Positions 6,655 to 29,167 of a DNA stretch of 64,000 nucleotides are shown piece by piece. The stretch covers positions 1 to 64,000 of the forward strand of contig JANINR010000014.1 in NCBI GenBank assembly GCA_024508915.1, in the 5' to 3' direction. Source of the stretch: Lysobacteraceae bacterium. Lineage in GTDB: Bacteria > Pseudomonadota > Gammaproteobacteria > Xanthomonadales > Xanthomonadaceae. Within the stretch, counting starts at the first letter, position 1, and every line of letters begins with the position of its first letter. The notes under the pieces are model-generated. The model was not told the origin of the DNA. It ran no database searches and worked only from the letters and a program-made list of their open reading frames with translations. The position numbers and the translations under genes are program-made.

Positions 6655-6666
6655 TTGCCGCGCGGG

Positions 6667-6699
6667 TTTAAGGACAGTCGGCAGCGTGGTCGCGTAAAC
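6667..6699 (+). promoter_or_regulatory. Conserved phage element copy 2: TTTAAGGAC-N16-GCGTAAAC
   Basis: Intergenic, before the ORF at 6747; same spacing as the other copies. Confidence 0.5.
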
Positions 6700-22972: not shown

Positions 22973-24183
22973 TGTGTTTCTTCGGCGCCGTCGCCCACCA
23001 GTCCAGCATGCAGGAGCTGGACCTGCTGAACCCGCAGCTCGACCCGCGCATCAGCTACACCGGCGGGCCGAAGACGTACTTCGGCGCCGATGGTGTGCTG
23101 CGCCAGGCGGCTGCGAACACCTGGCCGCTGGAGTACGACCCGATCACGCCGAAGCCTGTTGGCCGCAGCGTGTGGGAGCAGCGGACGAACCTGCTCCTGC
23201 GATCGGAGGAATACGACAACGCGGTATGGACTAAGTCGTTCGCGTCCATCGTCGCCAATGCCACGACCGCTCCGGATGGGGCGCAAACCGCCGACAAGTT
23301 CGTCCCGGACAACAACGCGCTCGCCAACTTCACGCTCTACGAGACAGCCACAGTCGCCTCGGGGGTCGCCACCGCGTTCTCGCAGCACGTCAAGGCGGCG
23401 GAGTATTCGACCTGCTCTCTGCTCGTGTTGCAGGGGGCCAACCCGACCGTCAACTTCAACCTGACCACGAAGACGGTCACGGCTTCGAATGGCGCCAGCG
23501 GCTACATGGTCGAGCTTCCAGGCGGCTGGTTCCGTTGCGTCCTGGTCTACACGCCGAGCGCGACGGGCAGTGTGCAGCACCGCTTCTACGACCGCACGCC
23601 GGGGGCTCGGTCGAGCGACGGCGTCTCCGGGATCTACGTGTGGGGCGCGCAGGTGGAAGCTGGAGCCTTCGCCAGTCCCTACATCCCCACGCAGGGTTCG
23701 CAGGTTACCCGCGCCGCGGACGTTCCCGCTTTCGCTCTGGCCGGAATTCGATACAACCCGGCTGGCCTGTCGGTGCTGGTCAATGTGATCGCTGCCGATG
23801 GTGTGGGTTCGCAAACCGCGATGGAAATCGGCGACGGCACGAACACGAACCGCATACTGATGTGGCGCAGCACGAACAATCTGCAGTCCACCATGCGCAG
23901 CAGCGGCGGAGACCCTGGCGATGCAACGTCCACGAACCCGAGCGTCGTGAGCGGAGCGGAATACAGGCTCGCCGCGGCGTTCCAGACGAACAACCTCCGC
24001 GCCGTGCGCAATGGCGGCGCAATCGTTGGGCCGGACACGGCAGCGACCATGCCTTCCGGCTCTTTCAGTGGGTGGCTGGGGCGAACCGGCGTCGGCGGCA
24101 GCTACGCCAACTCTCCGCTTCGCCTGGTCCGCCTCTACCCGGCCCCGGTGACGAACAGCGAGCTGCAGGCGATGGCGGCATGA
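22972..24183 (+). CDS. Tail fiber/receptor-binding-like protein with lectin-like (LamG-type) repeats
   Basis: 403 aa; NLLLRSEEYDNAVWTK...SGIYVWGAQVEAGAFASPYIPT phage fiber pattern. Confidence 0.7.
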   Translation: MCFFGAVAHQSSMQELDLLNPQLDPRISYTGGPKTYFGADGVLRQAAANTWPLEYDPITPKPVGRSVWEQRTNLLLRSEEYDNAVWTKSFASIVANATTAPDGAQTADKFVPDNNALANFTLYETATVASGVATAFSQHVKAAEYSTCSLLVLQGANPTVNFNLTTKTVTASNGASGYMVELPGGWFRCVLVYTPSATGSVQHRFYDRTPGARSSDGVSGIYVWGAQVEAGAFASPYIPTQGSQVTRAADVPAFALAGIRYNPAGLSVLVNVIAADGVGSQTAMEIGDGTNTNRILMWRSTNNLQSTMRSSGGDPGDATSTNPSVVSGAEYRLAAAFQTNNLRAVRNGGAIVGPDTAATMPSGSFSGWLGRTGVGGSYANSPLRLVRLYPAPVTNSELQAMAA

Positions 24184-24407
24184 CCACCTTCCTCCGCTTC
24201 CCCGACGAGGCGCGCGCGAAGGCGTGCATGCCGGGCTGGTACAGCGACGAGCTGGGGTGGTTGGCGCCGCGCGCCGCCACCGCGATCGACGTCATCGGCC
24301 CGATCGACGGGCAGGGCTTCCACCTCAACGTCCTCGGCGCACTGCCGGCGAAGGCCCAGCCCTTCGTCGTCGAGCCGGCTACGCCGCGGCGCGTGTTCGC
24401 CGAGTAG
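24180..24407 (+). CDS. Phage hypothetical protein
   Basis: 75 aa; overlapping start. Confidence 0.6.
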   Translation: MTTFLRFPDEARAKACMPGWYSDELGWLAPRAATAIDVIGPIDGQGFHLNVLGALPAKAQPFVVEPATPRRVFAE

Positions 24408-24431
24408 CCGCGCTACGTTTCGACGCGCCGT

Positions 24432-24463
24432 TTTAAGGACGGTCGGCACGGCGGGCTGGTATC
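24432..24463 (+). promoter_or_regulatory. Conserved phage element copy 3: TTTAAGGAC-N16-TGGTATC
   Basis: Intergenic, before the lysis cassette. Confidence 0.5.
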
Positions 24464-24494
24464 TGGGAGGCTGCATTTTCAGTGCCGGCCTCCA

Positions 24495-25061
24495 ATGACG
24501 TTGTCGCTGCTGCTCGCGAAGTTCTGGGGTTGGCTCCTGGCGGCCATCGGCGCCGCCTTCTCGGTGTGGGCAGCGCACCAGCGCGAGAAGTTCCGCAAGG
24601 CGGTGGCGGAGTGGAGGCAGCGGCGCCGCGATCGGGCCGCTGCATGGACCGCGCTGCTCGCCGACTTCGGCAAGGTGCGCGACGCGGTGTCCGGCATCCA
24701 GGGGCAACTGGGCCTGCTGCAGGCGATGGTCCGCGCGCAGAGCGACCTCGCCACCGAAGGCAGCTTCGAATGCGACCCGCATGGCCGCAACGAGATGGTC
24801 AACCGCACCTACGGGCGGCTGCTCGGCGTCGGCCAGGGCGATCTGCTCGGCCTGCGCTGGAAAGACTTCATCCACCCGGACGACGCGGTGGCCTTCCTCG
24901 AGGCGAACGCCAAGGCGCTGGCCGAGCACCGGCTCTTCCACAAGCGCGTGCGCATGGTGCGCAGCGACGGGGACGTAATCACGGTCGACGTGACGATCAT
25001 CCCCCACCCCGAAAACCCGCCGGCCACGCGGTGGTTCGGAAAGATCACCCTGGTGGCCTGA
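24495..25061 (+). CDS. Membrane-anchored PAS-domain protein in the lysis cassette
   Basis: 188 aa; N-terminal TM (LLAKFWGWLLAAIGAAFSVWA), then PAS-like MVNRTYGRLLGVGQGDLLGLRWKDFIHPDDAVAFLEANAKAL...RMVRSDGDVITVDVTIIPHP. Confidence 0.7.
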   Translation: MTLSLLLAKFWGWLLAAIGAAFSVWAAHQREKFRKAVAEWRQRRRDRAAAWTALLADFGKVRDAVSGIQGQLGLLQAMVRAQSDLATEGSFECDPHGRNEMVNRTYGRLLGVGQGDLLGLRWKDFIHPDDAVAFLEANAKALAEHRLFHKRVRMVRSDGDVITVDVTIIPHPENPPATRWFGKITLVA

Positions 25062-25071
25062 GGGCACGGCG

Positions 25072-25437
25072 ATGAAGGACGGCAAGATCCAGTTGGGCAC
25101 GAAGCTGCTGGTGTTCGCGCTGCCGGTGGCGACCCTGGTCACGCTGGTGGTGCTGCTGTTCGGCAGCGGCCTGCGCCAGCTCGGCAGCCTGGCCGACCTC
25201 ACGGCCTTCGCCATCGAACTCGCGCCGCGCACTCTCTACGCGATCGCGATCGCCGGCAGCGCGTCGGTGATGATGCACGCGACCGCGACGGATCTCGGCA
25301 ACGGCAAGCGCAAGGCGCTGATCCAGGCGGCGGAGACCGGGGGCAGGGGGCCGCTGCTGATCCTCGCCGGCGAGACGCTGGCGTGGATGTTGTGGGTGGT
25401 CATCTTCACCCAGATCTACCTGCACGGGCTGCTGTGA
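25072..25437 (+). CDS. Putative holin/small membrane protein
   Basis: 121 aa with three hydrophobic segments, directly upstream of the endolysin. Confidence 0.6.
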   Translation: MKDGKIQLGTKLLVFALPVATLVTLVVLLFGSGLRQLGSLADLTAFAIELAPRTLYAIAIAGSASVMMHATATDLGNGKRKALIQAAETGGRGPLLILAGETLAWMLWVVIFTQIYLHGLL

Positions 25438-26276
25438 TGCGCGCCCGGGCCATCCTCACCGTTGCCGCTGCGCTGCTGCTGGCGGCCTGCAACCCGCCGC
25501 AGGTGCGCGACAACGCCACCGACGTGGCCGAGGCCGCCAGCGAGGCCATGGCCGACTCCGTCGCCGACGCGCAGACCGCCACCGCGGAGGTGGTGCTGCC
25601 GACGTTGCTGGCCGTGCAGGACGCGGCGGCCGTGATCTCCGAACCGCTGCCGACGCCGGCGGCGCGCGACACCATCGCCCCCGAGGCGGTGGCGCTGATC
25701 GTGCGCTACGAGATCAGCAGCCTGGGGGTGTACACGCGCCGCTACGAGCGGCCGCTGTGCCCCGGCGGCGCCTCCGGCCCCACCATCGGCATCGGTTACG
25801 ACCTCGGGCAGCAGACGGCCGCACGCATCGCCGCGGACTGGGCCGACCACCCGGAGGTCGCACGCCTGGCCACGGCCAGCGGGCAGGTGGGGCCGAGCCG
25901 CTGCGCCGCCTGGCGGGCGGCCAACGCCGACATCCGCACGCCGATCGCGCTGGCGGAGCAGGTGTTCTCCGATGCCGTGCTGCCCGATTTCGTGCGCCAG
26001 GCGGGCCGCGCGATGCGCACCGGCTGGGATGGTCTCGCGCCGATGCCGAAGGGCGCCAGCGTGAGCATGGGCTTCAACCGCGGCTGGTCGATGGCCGGGA
26101 GCCGCAACGCCGAGAAGCGCGAGCTGCGCGACCGTTGCGTGCCGGACGATGACGCCGGCTGCGTCGCCGCGCAGCTGCGCGGCATGCAGCGCCTGTGGCC
26201 CGGCGCGCAGGCGCCGAACCCCGGCCTGCGTGCACGCCGCGAGGCCGAGGCGCGGCTGGCGGAGGGCGTGTCATGA
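25437..26276 (+). CDS. Endolysin-like glycoside hydrolase (pesticin/T4-lysozyme-like) with lipoprotein signal
   Basis: 279 aa; LLLAAC lipobox; IVRYEISSLGVYTRRYERPLCPGGASGPTIGIGYDLG. Confidence 0.65.
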   Translation: MRARAILTVAAALLLAACNPPQVRDNATDVAEAASEAMADSVADAQTATAEVVLPTLLAVQDAAAVISEPLPTPAARDTIAPEAVALIVRYEISSLGVYTRRYERPLCPGGASGPTIGIGYDLGQQTAARIAADWADHPEVARLATASGQVGPSRCAAWRAANADIRTPIALAEQVFSDAVLPDFVRQAGRAMRTGWDGLAPMPKGASVSMGFNRGWSMAGSRNAEKRELRDRCVPDDDAGCVAAQLRGMQRLWPGAQAPNPGLRARREAEARLAEGVS

Positions 26277-26707
26277 CGCCGCCGCTGCCGGACCAGGTGG
26301 AGCAGGTCGTCGAGCGCACCGAGTCGCGCGTGCGCGCGTGGTGGTCAGCGTGGAAGTGGGTGGCCATCCTCGCGCTGGCGCTGGCCCTGTCGCTGTGGGG
26401 CAACCTGCACCAGTACGGCACGCGCCGCGCGGCGAAAGAGACCTGCCGCGCCAACATGGTCGAGGCCGCGAAGAAGGGCATCGAGCTCGAGCGCAAGCGC
26501 GCAGCCACCGACGAAAAGCAGGCGCGCGGCATCGCCCAGGATTCGAAAGACAAGGCCGGCGCCGAAGCGCGCGGCGCACAGGAGAGTACCAATGGCCGCG
26601 AAGCCGCGATTCGCACTGTGGTGGTGCGTGGCGATTGCCGCATGCCTGTCGGGCTGCCAAGCCTTCAGCCTGCAGTCGACGAAGCCAACGCCGCCGGTCG
26701 TTTCTGA
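26273..26707 (+). CDS. i-spanin (Rz-like)
   Basis: 144 aa; N-terminal TM then charged coiled region; overlaps a lipoprotein ORF. Confidence 0.7.
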   Translation: MTPPLPDQVEQVVERTESRVRAWWSAWKWVAILALALALSLWGNLHQYGTRRAAKETCRANMVEAAKKGIELERKRAATDEKQARGIAQDSKDKAGAEARGAQESTNGREAAIRTVVVRGDCRMPVGLPSLQPAVDEANAAGRF

Positions 26708-26906
26708 CTGCCTGGAGCAGCCGCAGGGCGTGTTCCCGCCGGAGCCGGCGCAGCCGGCCGCGGGCGCGCCGATCCCCGACGTGTACGTGCAGGCGATGAA
26801 GGCGTGGGCGAACCGCATCCTGGGCATCGCCACCGTCGATCGCATCCTCTGGCGCGGCGAGCATCGGTGCATCCGCAAGATGGTCGACGTCGGGCAGGTG
26901 CGCTGA
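26592..26906 (+). CDS. o-spanin (Rz1-like lipoprotein), overlapping Rz in another frame
   Basis: 104 aa; ACLSGC lipobox, Pro-rich mature part. Confidence 0.7.
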   Translation: MAAKPRFALWWCVAIAACLSGCQAFSLQSTKPTPPVVSDCLEQPQGVFPPEPAQPAAGAPIPDVYVQAMKAWANRILGIATVDRILWRGEHRCIRKMVDVGQVR

Positions 26907-28133: not shown

Positions 28134-28376
28134 ATGCAGCGCCGCCATACCTCCCCGATCCGCGTCGCCCGCCTGAAGCGGGGCCTCAGCCAGGCCCAGC
28201 TCGGGACCACGGTGGGGGTCACCAAGTCCGCCATTTCGGCCTGGGAGAACGACCGCGAGTTTCCGGAAGTGCGCAGGCTGTCCGGCCTGCGCCGGGCGCT
28301 GCGGCCGCACCTGGACCTGACGCGCTACGCCGACCACGTCGAAGCCGTCACGACCGGCAAGCCGAGGGCTGCCTGA
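28134..28376 (+). CDS. Cro-like XRE-family regulator
   Basis: 80 aa; HTH GLSQAQLGTTVGVTKSAISAWENDREFPEV. Confidence 0.85.
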   Translation: MQRRHTSPIRVARLKRGLSQAQLGTTVGVTKSAISAWENDREFPEVRRLSGLRRALRPHLDLTRYADHVEAVTTGKPRAA

Positions 28377-29167
28377 TGCGCCTGATCGGCTACGTCCGCG
28401 TGAGCACCGACGAGCAGGCGAGGGCAGGGCACAGCCTCGCCATGCAGCCCGAGCGGCTGGCCGCCTACTGCCTGGCGCACCAGCACGTGCTGGTGGACGT
28501 GGTGATCGAGGCAGACGGGGTCAGCGGCAGCCTGCCGCTGGAGCGCCGCCCGGGCGGCCGTGACGTGCTGCGCCGGCTCAAGGCTGGCGAGGCGGACGGC
28601 ATCGTGGTGATCCGCCTCGAGCGCCTGTTCCGCGACATGCTCGACGGTCTGCTGTTCTTCCGGCGCACCGCGCGCCGCGGCGGGCTGGCCGTGCATTCGC
28701 TGGCCGAGCACGTCGACACCAGCACCGCGGCCGGGCGCCTGGCGCTCAATGTGCACCTGCTGATGGCCGACCACGACCGCGACAAGGGCGCCGAGCGCAC
28801 CGCCGAGGTCATGCAGGGGCTGCGGCGCGAGGGGAAAGTGTTCGGCCACGTGCCCTACGGCTGCGTCGACGTCGACGGTGCGCTGCGCCGCGACCCGGTG
28901 CGCTGGGCGGTGCGCGAGGACATCGTGGCGATGCACCGGGCGCAGGGGCTGAGCCTGGCGACCATCCGCAGCGTGCTGCGCGATCGCAGGATCGCGGCAC
29001 CCAACGGCGGCGCGCTCTGGGCCAAGTCCACCCTGGCCGAGCTGGTCCGCACGCATGGCTCGCTGGTGCATCTGCCGGTTCATGAGGGGGATGGTGGCGC
29101 GCCGCTCGCGCCGGCGCCTGATGCGGTGGCGTCAACGGGGGAACAGGGCCATGCAACCCGGCACTGA
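28376..29167 (+). CDS. Serine recombinase/resolvase family
   Basis: 263 aa; MRLIGYVRVSTDEQA N-terminus with catalytic Ser context; IVVIRLERLFRD. Confidence 0.9.
   Translation: MRLIGYVRVSTDEQARAGHSLAMQPERLAAYCLAHQHVLVDVVIEADGVSGSLPLERRPGGRDVLRRLKAGEADGIVVIRLERLFRDMLDGLLFFRRTARRGGLAVHSLAEHVDTSTAAGRLALNVHLLMADHDRDKGAERTAEVMQGLRREGKVFGHVPYGCVDVDGALRRDPVRWAVREDIVAMHRAQGLSLATIRSVLRDRRIAAPNGGALWAKSTLAELVRTHGSLVHLPVHEGDGGAPLAPAPDAVASTGEQGHATRH

Follow-up and report, generated by a model that had tools for sequence, protein, structure and literature searches.

The window, by which we mean the whole 64,000-nucleotide stretch of DNA analyzed here, covers nearly the entire contig of a genome of 2.39 Mb. 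At 24495..25061 on the forward strand it contains an open reading frame with an ATG start that encodes a protein of 188 amino acids, with coordinates exactly as given in the initial annotation, which had read it as a membrane-anchored PAS sensor-like protein opening a phage lysis cassette. Siphovirus-like prophage head and tail genes (portal, minor head, tape measure, tail protein and tail fibre) lie upstream. The codon-position GC of 24495-25061 was 0.70/0.46/0.93, and its N-terminal and PAS parts each match the neighbouring phage genes in this respect. Further downstream, an open reading frame at 28376-29167 looks like a serine recombinase gene (MRLIGYVRVSTDEQ...) and has HTH-like frames close by; this is a possible integration and repressor region of the prophage.

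The gene does stand directly before holin-like and endolysin genes, as had been claimed. After a gap of 10 bp it is followed on the same strand by a gene for a holin-like membrane protein with three transmembrane (TM) helices (25072..25437, 121 amino acids), recognized from alignments and a profile, and then by a lysozyme-type endolysin gene (25437..26276, forward strand, 279 amino acids). Two spanin candidates come next on the forward strand: an Rz-like i-spanin (26273..26707), suggested by an N-terminal TM, its position and a weak match to the Rz-like spanin family phrog_214 (E=0.13), and an Rz1-like o-spanin lipoprotein (26592..26906), suggested by its position, a lipobox (LSGC) and overlap with the Rz frame.

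Homologs in same-family bacterial prophages match the endolysin over the full length with 44-50% identity, except for one at 36%, and the enzyme of Xanthomonas phage AhaSv is 41-42% identical with it. A further homolog, in the viral contig L132, has a PHROG endolysin match and a Phage_lysozyme match slightly under the cut-off. The window endolysin begins with a lipobox (LLLAAC), separated from the lysozyme part by an Ala/Val-rich spacer, and its relatives in L132 and L033 start with a lipobox or a signal peptide. These N-termini suggest that members of the family are exported and in many cases anchored to a lipid. Given the export signal on the endolysin, what the membrane proteins of the cassette probably control is the moment at which the membrane gives way and the enzyme can act.

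A prophage-specific element, CGTTTTAAGGACGGTCGGCA, lies ahead of the PAS gene at 24429..24448 on the forward strand, with a second copy at 6664-6683. The sequence TTTAAGGACNGTCGGCA occurs at 6667 and 24432, has no other site in the genome even when one mismatch is allowed, and never appeared in shuffled sequences. In both places the element is intergenic and upstream of a gene group, and it is found only in the prophage. A third piece, CGTTTTAAGGAC at 1382 (1382-1393), is weaker. The element that the initial annotation had placed before the gene as its copy 3 is thus present there and repeated once, with a less convincing further copy. Between the element and the ATG lies a GC-rich hairpin (GGAGGC...GCCTCC, 24465..24493, forward strand); folding of 24405-24500 gave z = -2.7. 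Consensus scans ahead of the PAS gene found neither a sigma70 promoter nor an intrinsic terminator. We also note a small open reading frame at 24180-24407, flanked by the tail protein gene and the element, that matches phrog_18574 (5.8e-13).

A profile and structure check, which the initial annotation had called for, bore out a single PAS domain at residues 86-186 (24750..25052, forward strand). The best Pfam match of the protein was PAS_3 (PF08447, E=1.6e-11), and gathering scores were exceeded by this model as well as by PAS_4 (PF08448), PAS_9 (PF13426) and PAS (PF00989). The NCBIfam model TIGR00229 also matched over its cut-off (E=1.7e-8). An AF2 model computed from 21 sequences had a mean pLDDT of 93.5 and showed a helix at residues 3-85, followed by a canonical PAS fold. 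The top PDB matches of this model listed by Foldseek were PAS or LOV structures, with TM-scores by target mostly of 0.6-0.9 for single-domain entries. The PAS assignment by Pfam, NCBIfam, AF2 and Foldseek is far beyond chance. Pfam and NCBIfam scans found no kinase, cyclase, HTH or other output domain in the 188 residues, and the model stops at the PAS fold, in keeping with the claim that kinase or cyclase output is absent. Inspection of the PAS domain by eye, with unaligned reference positions, revealed neither an NCRFLQ-type cysteine as in LOV domains nor a FixL-type heme histidine in helix F.

The N-terminal TM and linker that had been proposed were likewise recovered. Hydropathy indicated one hydrophobic segment, a single TM helix at residues 3-21 (24501..24557, forward strand), and the AF2 helix and alignments delineated a predicted cytoplasmic helix or coiled-coil linker at residues 22-85 (24558..24749, forward strand). 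Residues 22-85 contain 12 K+R versus 6 D+E. Since the basic residues come after the TM helix, we predict an N-out/C-in topology, with the PAS domain in the cytoplasm.

To see what related cassettes carry in the same position, we examined prophages and viral contigs. In same-family prophages (L025-L030 and L033), the holin-like gene is immediately preceded by a gene whose product, some 100-115 amino acids long, consists of a single TM and a coiled coil and has no PAS; L031 lacks this arrangement of one-TM coiled-coil protein and holin-like gene. The viral set consisted of the best 80 endolysin loci (L034-L113). A profile search found the holin-like gene in 57 of these 80, the profile having been built partly from the window and L132 sequences, so that the scores of those two are not independent. 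A TM+coil protein captured by one profile accompanied the holin-like gene in 36 of the 57 holin-bearing loci, and in several others, as in AhaSv, the slot is taken by a longer single-TM protein that also has a coiled coil. A PAS profile found PAS in the slot in only one of the 80 loci, L078 (identical to L132), in agreement with the view that PAS domains are unusual in phage lysis modules. As most relatives lyse without it, the PAS domain is an accessory feature. Identity between the N-terminal part of the window protein and the TM+coil proteins found in the slot is no more than 12-18%, which makes replacement of the slot protein as likely as fusion to it.

The initial annotation had also proposed a search for co-occurrence of PAS proteins with phage holins, and two viral contigs indeed pair a TM-PAS protein with the same holin-like gene. 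L132 (identical to L078 and L136; IMGVR_UViG_2088090015_000068) encodes a 218-amino-acid TM-linker-PAS protein (PAS_3, 3.7e-10) whose gene extends into the beginning of the holin-like frame and is followed by an endolysin of the window's family and by Rz-like genes. L133 (identical to L135; 3300037307_000308) encodes a 232-amino-acid TM-linker-PAS homolog (PAS_3, 1.9e-10), after which the same holin-like gene starts at the contig end (...AYQEIIFWLPP...). A 189-amino-acid TM-PAS protein was moreover found in T7-like contigs (L140-L142, and L146, L147, L150 and L151 within the L146-L151 group), with PAS_3 over the cut-off in both proteins tested (L140 and L146). Its gene lies between a gene in the tail-fibre position and T7-type terminase genes (small terminase of L146: PF11123, 1.1e-17), which we take to be the position of gene 17.5 (holin) of T7. 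Synteny alone thus suggests that the L140 and L146 proteins occupy the holin slot. In the predicted model of the L146 protein the PAS fold is modelled with confidence, while the N-terminal helix has low confidence scores.

The TM-PAS proteins of L132, L133 and the T7-like contigs share a PNGG-SxRD linker motif, with which the window linker (DFGKVRDAVSG...RAQSD..GSFECDPHG) aligns in degenerate form. BLASTP of the window protein against P0001 gave 2e-7 across residues 59-184, spanning linker and PAS. A DNA pattern for PNGG-SLRD had one match in 369 genomes. Close relatives of the window protein were absent from the sampled genomes, where the matches fell in PAS domains belonging to proteins that were larger or unrelated, and tblastn against isolate phages and viral contigs returned no match. 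Two Cellulophaga phages, phi18:3 (L159 39102-40734) and phi19:1 (L160 5703-8611), encode candidate TM+PAS-fold proteins near endolysin/lysozyme genes, gp090 (likely BFVD S0A2B2 by length) and gp108 (likely R9ZZL0), respectively. These were not counted as TM-PAS cases, because their basis was Foldseek only, with poor superposition and without a Pfam match. The nearby 5TM proteins phi18:3 gp091 and phi19:1 gp111 look homologous.

That TM-PAS proteins recur in unrelated phages strengthens the case for a lysis role. The gene could instead be a moron or signalling gene, acting in host-pathway interference or superinfection exclusion and merely neighbouring the lysis genes: host regulators can be targets of single-domain PAS proteins, and a gene that comes after the intergenic element could be a separate unit. 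The short distance to the holin-like gene, the same place beside that gene in L132 and L133, and the holin slot in the T7-like contigs all speak against such a bystander, which we consider quite improbable. Because the slot is normally taken by a one-TM coiled-coil protein and TM-PAS recurs before the holin-like gene, we conclude that the window gene encodes a lysis-module protein with an added PAS domain, possibly recruited more than once.

A tree of PAS domains placed the proteins of L132, L133, L140 and L146 in one supported clade (95/93). The window PAS fell outside this phage clade and was placed, with a long branch, among PAS domains from sensor proteins of bacteria, and a single origin of all five phage PAS domains was seen in 3% of bootstrap trees. 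The tree therefore favours independent recruitment to the same slot, with the long branch of the window PAS as a caveat.

How might such a protein work? The initial annotation had suggested that it could gate lysis timing by environmental state or act as an antiholin, and both remain hypotheses. The N-terminal TM helix, oriented N-out, would place the helical stalk and the PAS domain in the cytoplasm. TM helix and stalk would most likely associate with the 3TM holin-like protein, and this association would set the moment of the membrane lesion and of the action of the already exported endolysin. The PAS domain would most likely dimerise, with a small molecule, a cofactor or a host protein as its ligand, and switch the stalk between a permissive and a non-permissive form. 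We infer, in other words, a one-TM lysis-module protein that partners the holin-like protein physically through TM and stalk, with ligand-controlled switching of the PAS domain tuning when the complex fires, and regard the odds for this reading as even.

Alternatively, PAS could be a dimerisation module only, through which a holin-like or antiholin-like one-TM lysis protein oligomerises without sensing. PAS domains often dimerise, the relatives have plain coiled coils in the same slot, the window PAS is without a known cofactor signature, and the DNA-binding domains of VqmA are monomeric without PAS (PMC8284805). A coiled coil would, however, be enough for this purpose, and the window fold retains the complete PAS core; recruitment of a sensor fold in more than one lineage also suggests a use beyond dimerisation. 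We consider the dimerisation-only explanation doubtful, while giving it some weight.

Lysis based on holins is usually pictured as a preset clock, triggered by the accumulation of a membrane protein or by loss of membrane energy. If the tuning role of PAS is true, host physiology would act directly on lysis timing through a sensor domain on one of the membrane proteins of the cassette. Similar TM-PAS proteins in the same place in unrelated environmental phages hint that, in some phages, the timing of lysis may depend on the condition of the host cell. Tentatively, and with less confidence than for the reading above, they may represent a recurring class of phage lysis proteins, born of two or more independent recruitments, in which the holin's one-TM partner bears a cytoplasmic PAS domain and host redox, energy or metabolite state gates the lysis clock directly, without transcription. 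The TM-PAS cassette would be a compact system for testing the link between host state and lysis timing, and it directs attention to the one-TM coiled-coil slot, present in many lysis cassettes and poorly annotated, as a place of regulation.

By topology, the nearest experimental analogue is LysF1b of the mycobacteriophages Girr and NBJ, a holin-like protein, not an antiholin, that is needed, along with a two-TM partner, for lysis to proceed efficiently, is predicted to be N-out/C-in and is assigned to family PF10874 (PMC13056207). Like LysF1b, the window protein has one N-terminal TM, a predicted N-out/C-in topology, basic residues after the TM and a helical cytoplasmic part, and its gene adjoins a multi-TM holin-like partner (25072-25437 and homologs) and endolysin genes. 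LysF1b differs in lacking PAS, in its Gram-positive hosts and in gene order. PF10874 (DUF2746) did not match the window protein in Pfam searches of the full protein to E=1 and of the N-terminal part to E=10.

Releasin gp25 of phage Mu, a protein of 99 amino acids with N-out/C-in topology, frees a SAR endolysin (PMC9239132). With gp25 the window protein shares one TM, a predicted N-out/C-in topology, a cytoplasmic domain, a lysis-gene setting and an exported, membrane-anchored endolysin, and the endolysins of its relatives also have export signals. The window protein might thus act, releasin-like, on the endolysin and not on the holin. We regard this as unlikely: neither the window protein nor the coil proteins of the slot had a Pfam match to DUF2730, a holin-like gene is present here whereas Mu has no holin, and a lipid anchor would not be freed as a SAR helix is. 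Gp25 itself is shorter and without PAS, and its gene lies downstream of the endolysin gene. Since neither PF10874 nor DUF2730 matched, we do not place the window protein in the LysF1b or releasin family and claim only, by analogy, that it may work like LysF1b or Mu releasin.

A TM+linker module without PAS (phrog_9869-like) adjoins an annotated endolysin or holin in four actinophages, as mu1/6 gp52 (L157), TurkishDelight gp37 (L154), Sonali gp22 (L155) and P1312 gp40 (L134). These proteins have TM and HPNSG-SLRDAV linker in common, and the annotation of P1312 gp40 as 'sensory protein kinase CreC' looks misleading. The window protein resembles these PNSG/PNGG-SLRDAV proteins in its TM and helical linker, a similar RDAV motif and the lysis neighbourhood, but the actinophage proteins stop after the linker, and the window motif is degenerate (DFGKVRDAV).

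In the literature searched, with subscription journals mostly outside its reach, no PAS protein was found as a component of a lysis cassette. BFVD contains further phage PAS proteins, among which A0A6J5NY05 matches the window model along most of its length. VqmA of vibriophage VP882 is a phage-encoded PAS transcription factor that ties host state to the lytic programme (PMC8284805), as we likewise propose for the window protein. VqmA is soluble, binds DNA and acts on the lysis-lysogeny decision, whereas the window protein is a membrane protein of the lysis cassette. Phage PAS proteins as such are already known; what seems new, judged from the literature searched, is the addition of a sensor domain to a one-TM protein of the lysis module.
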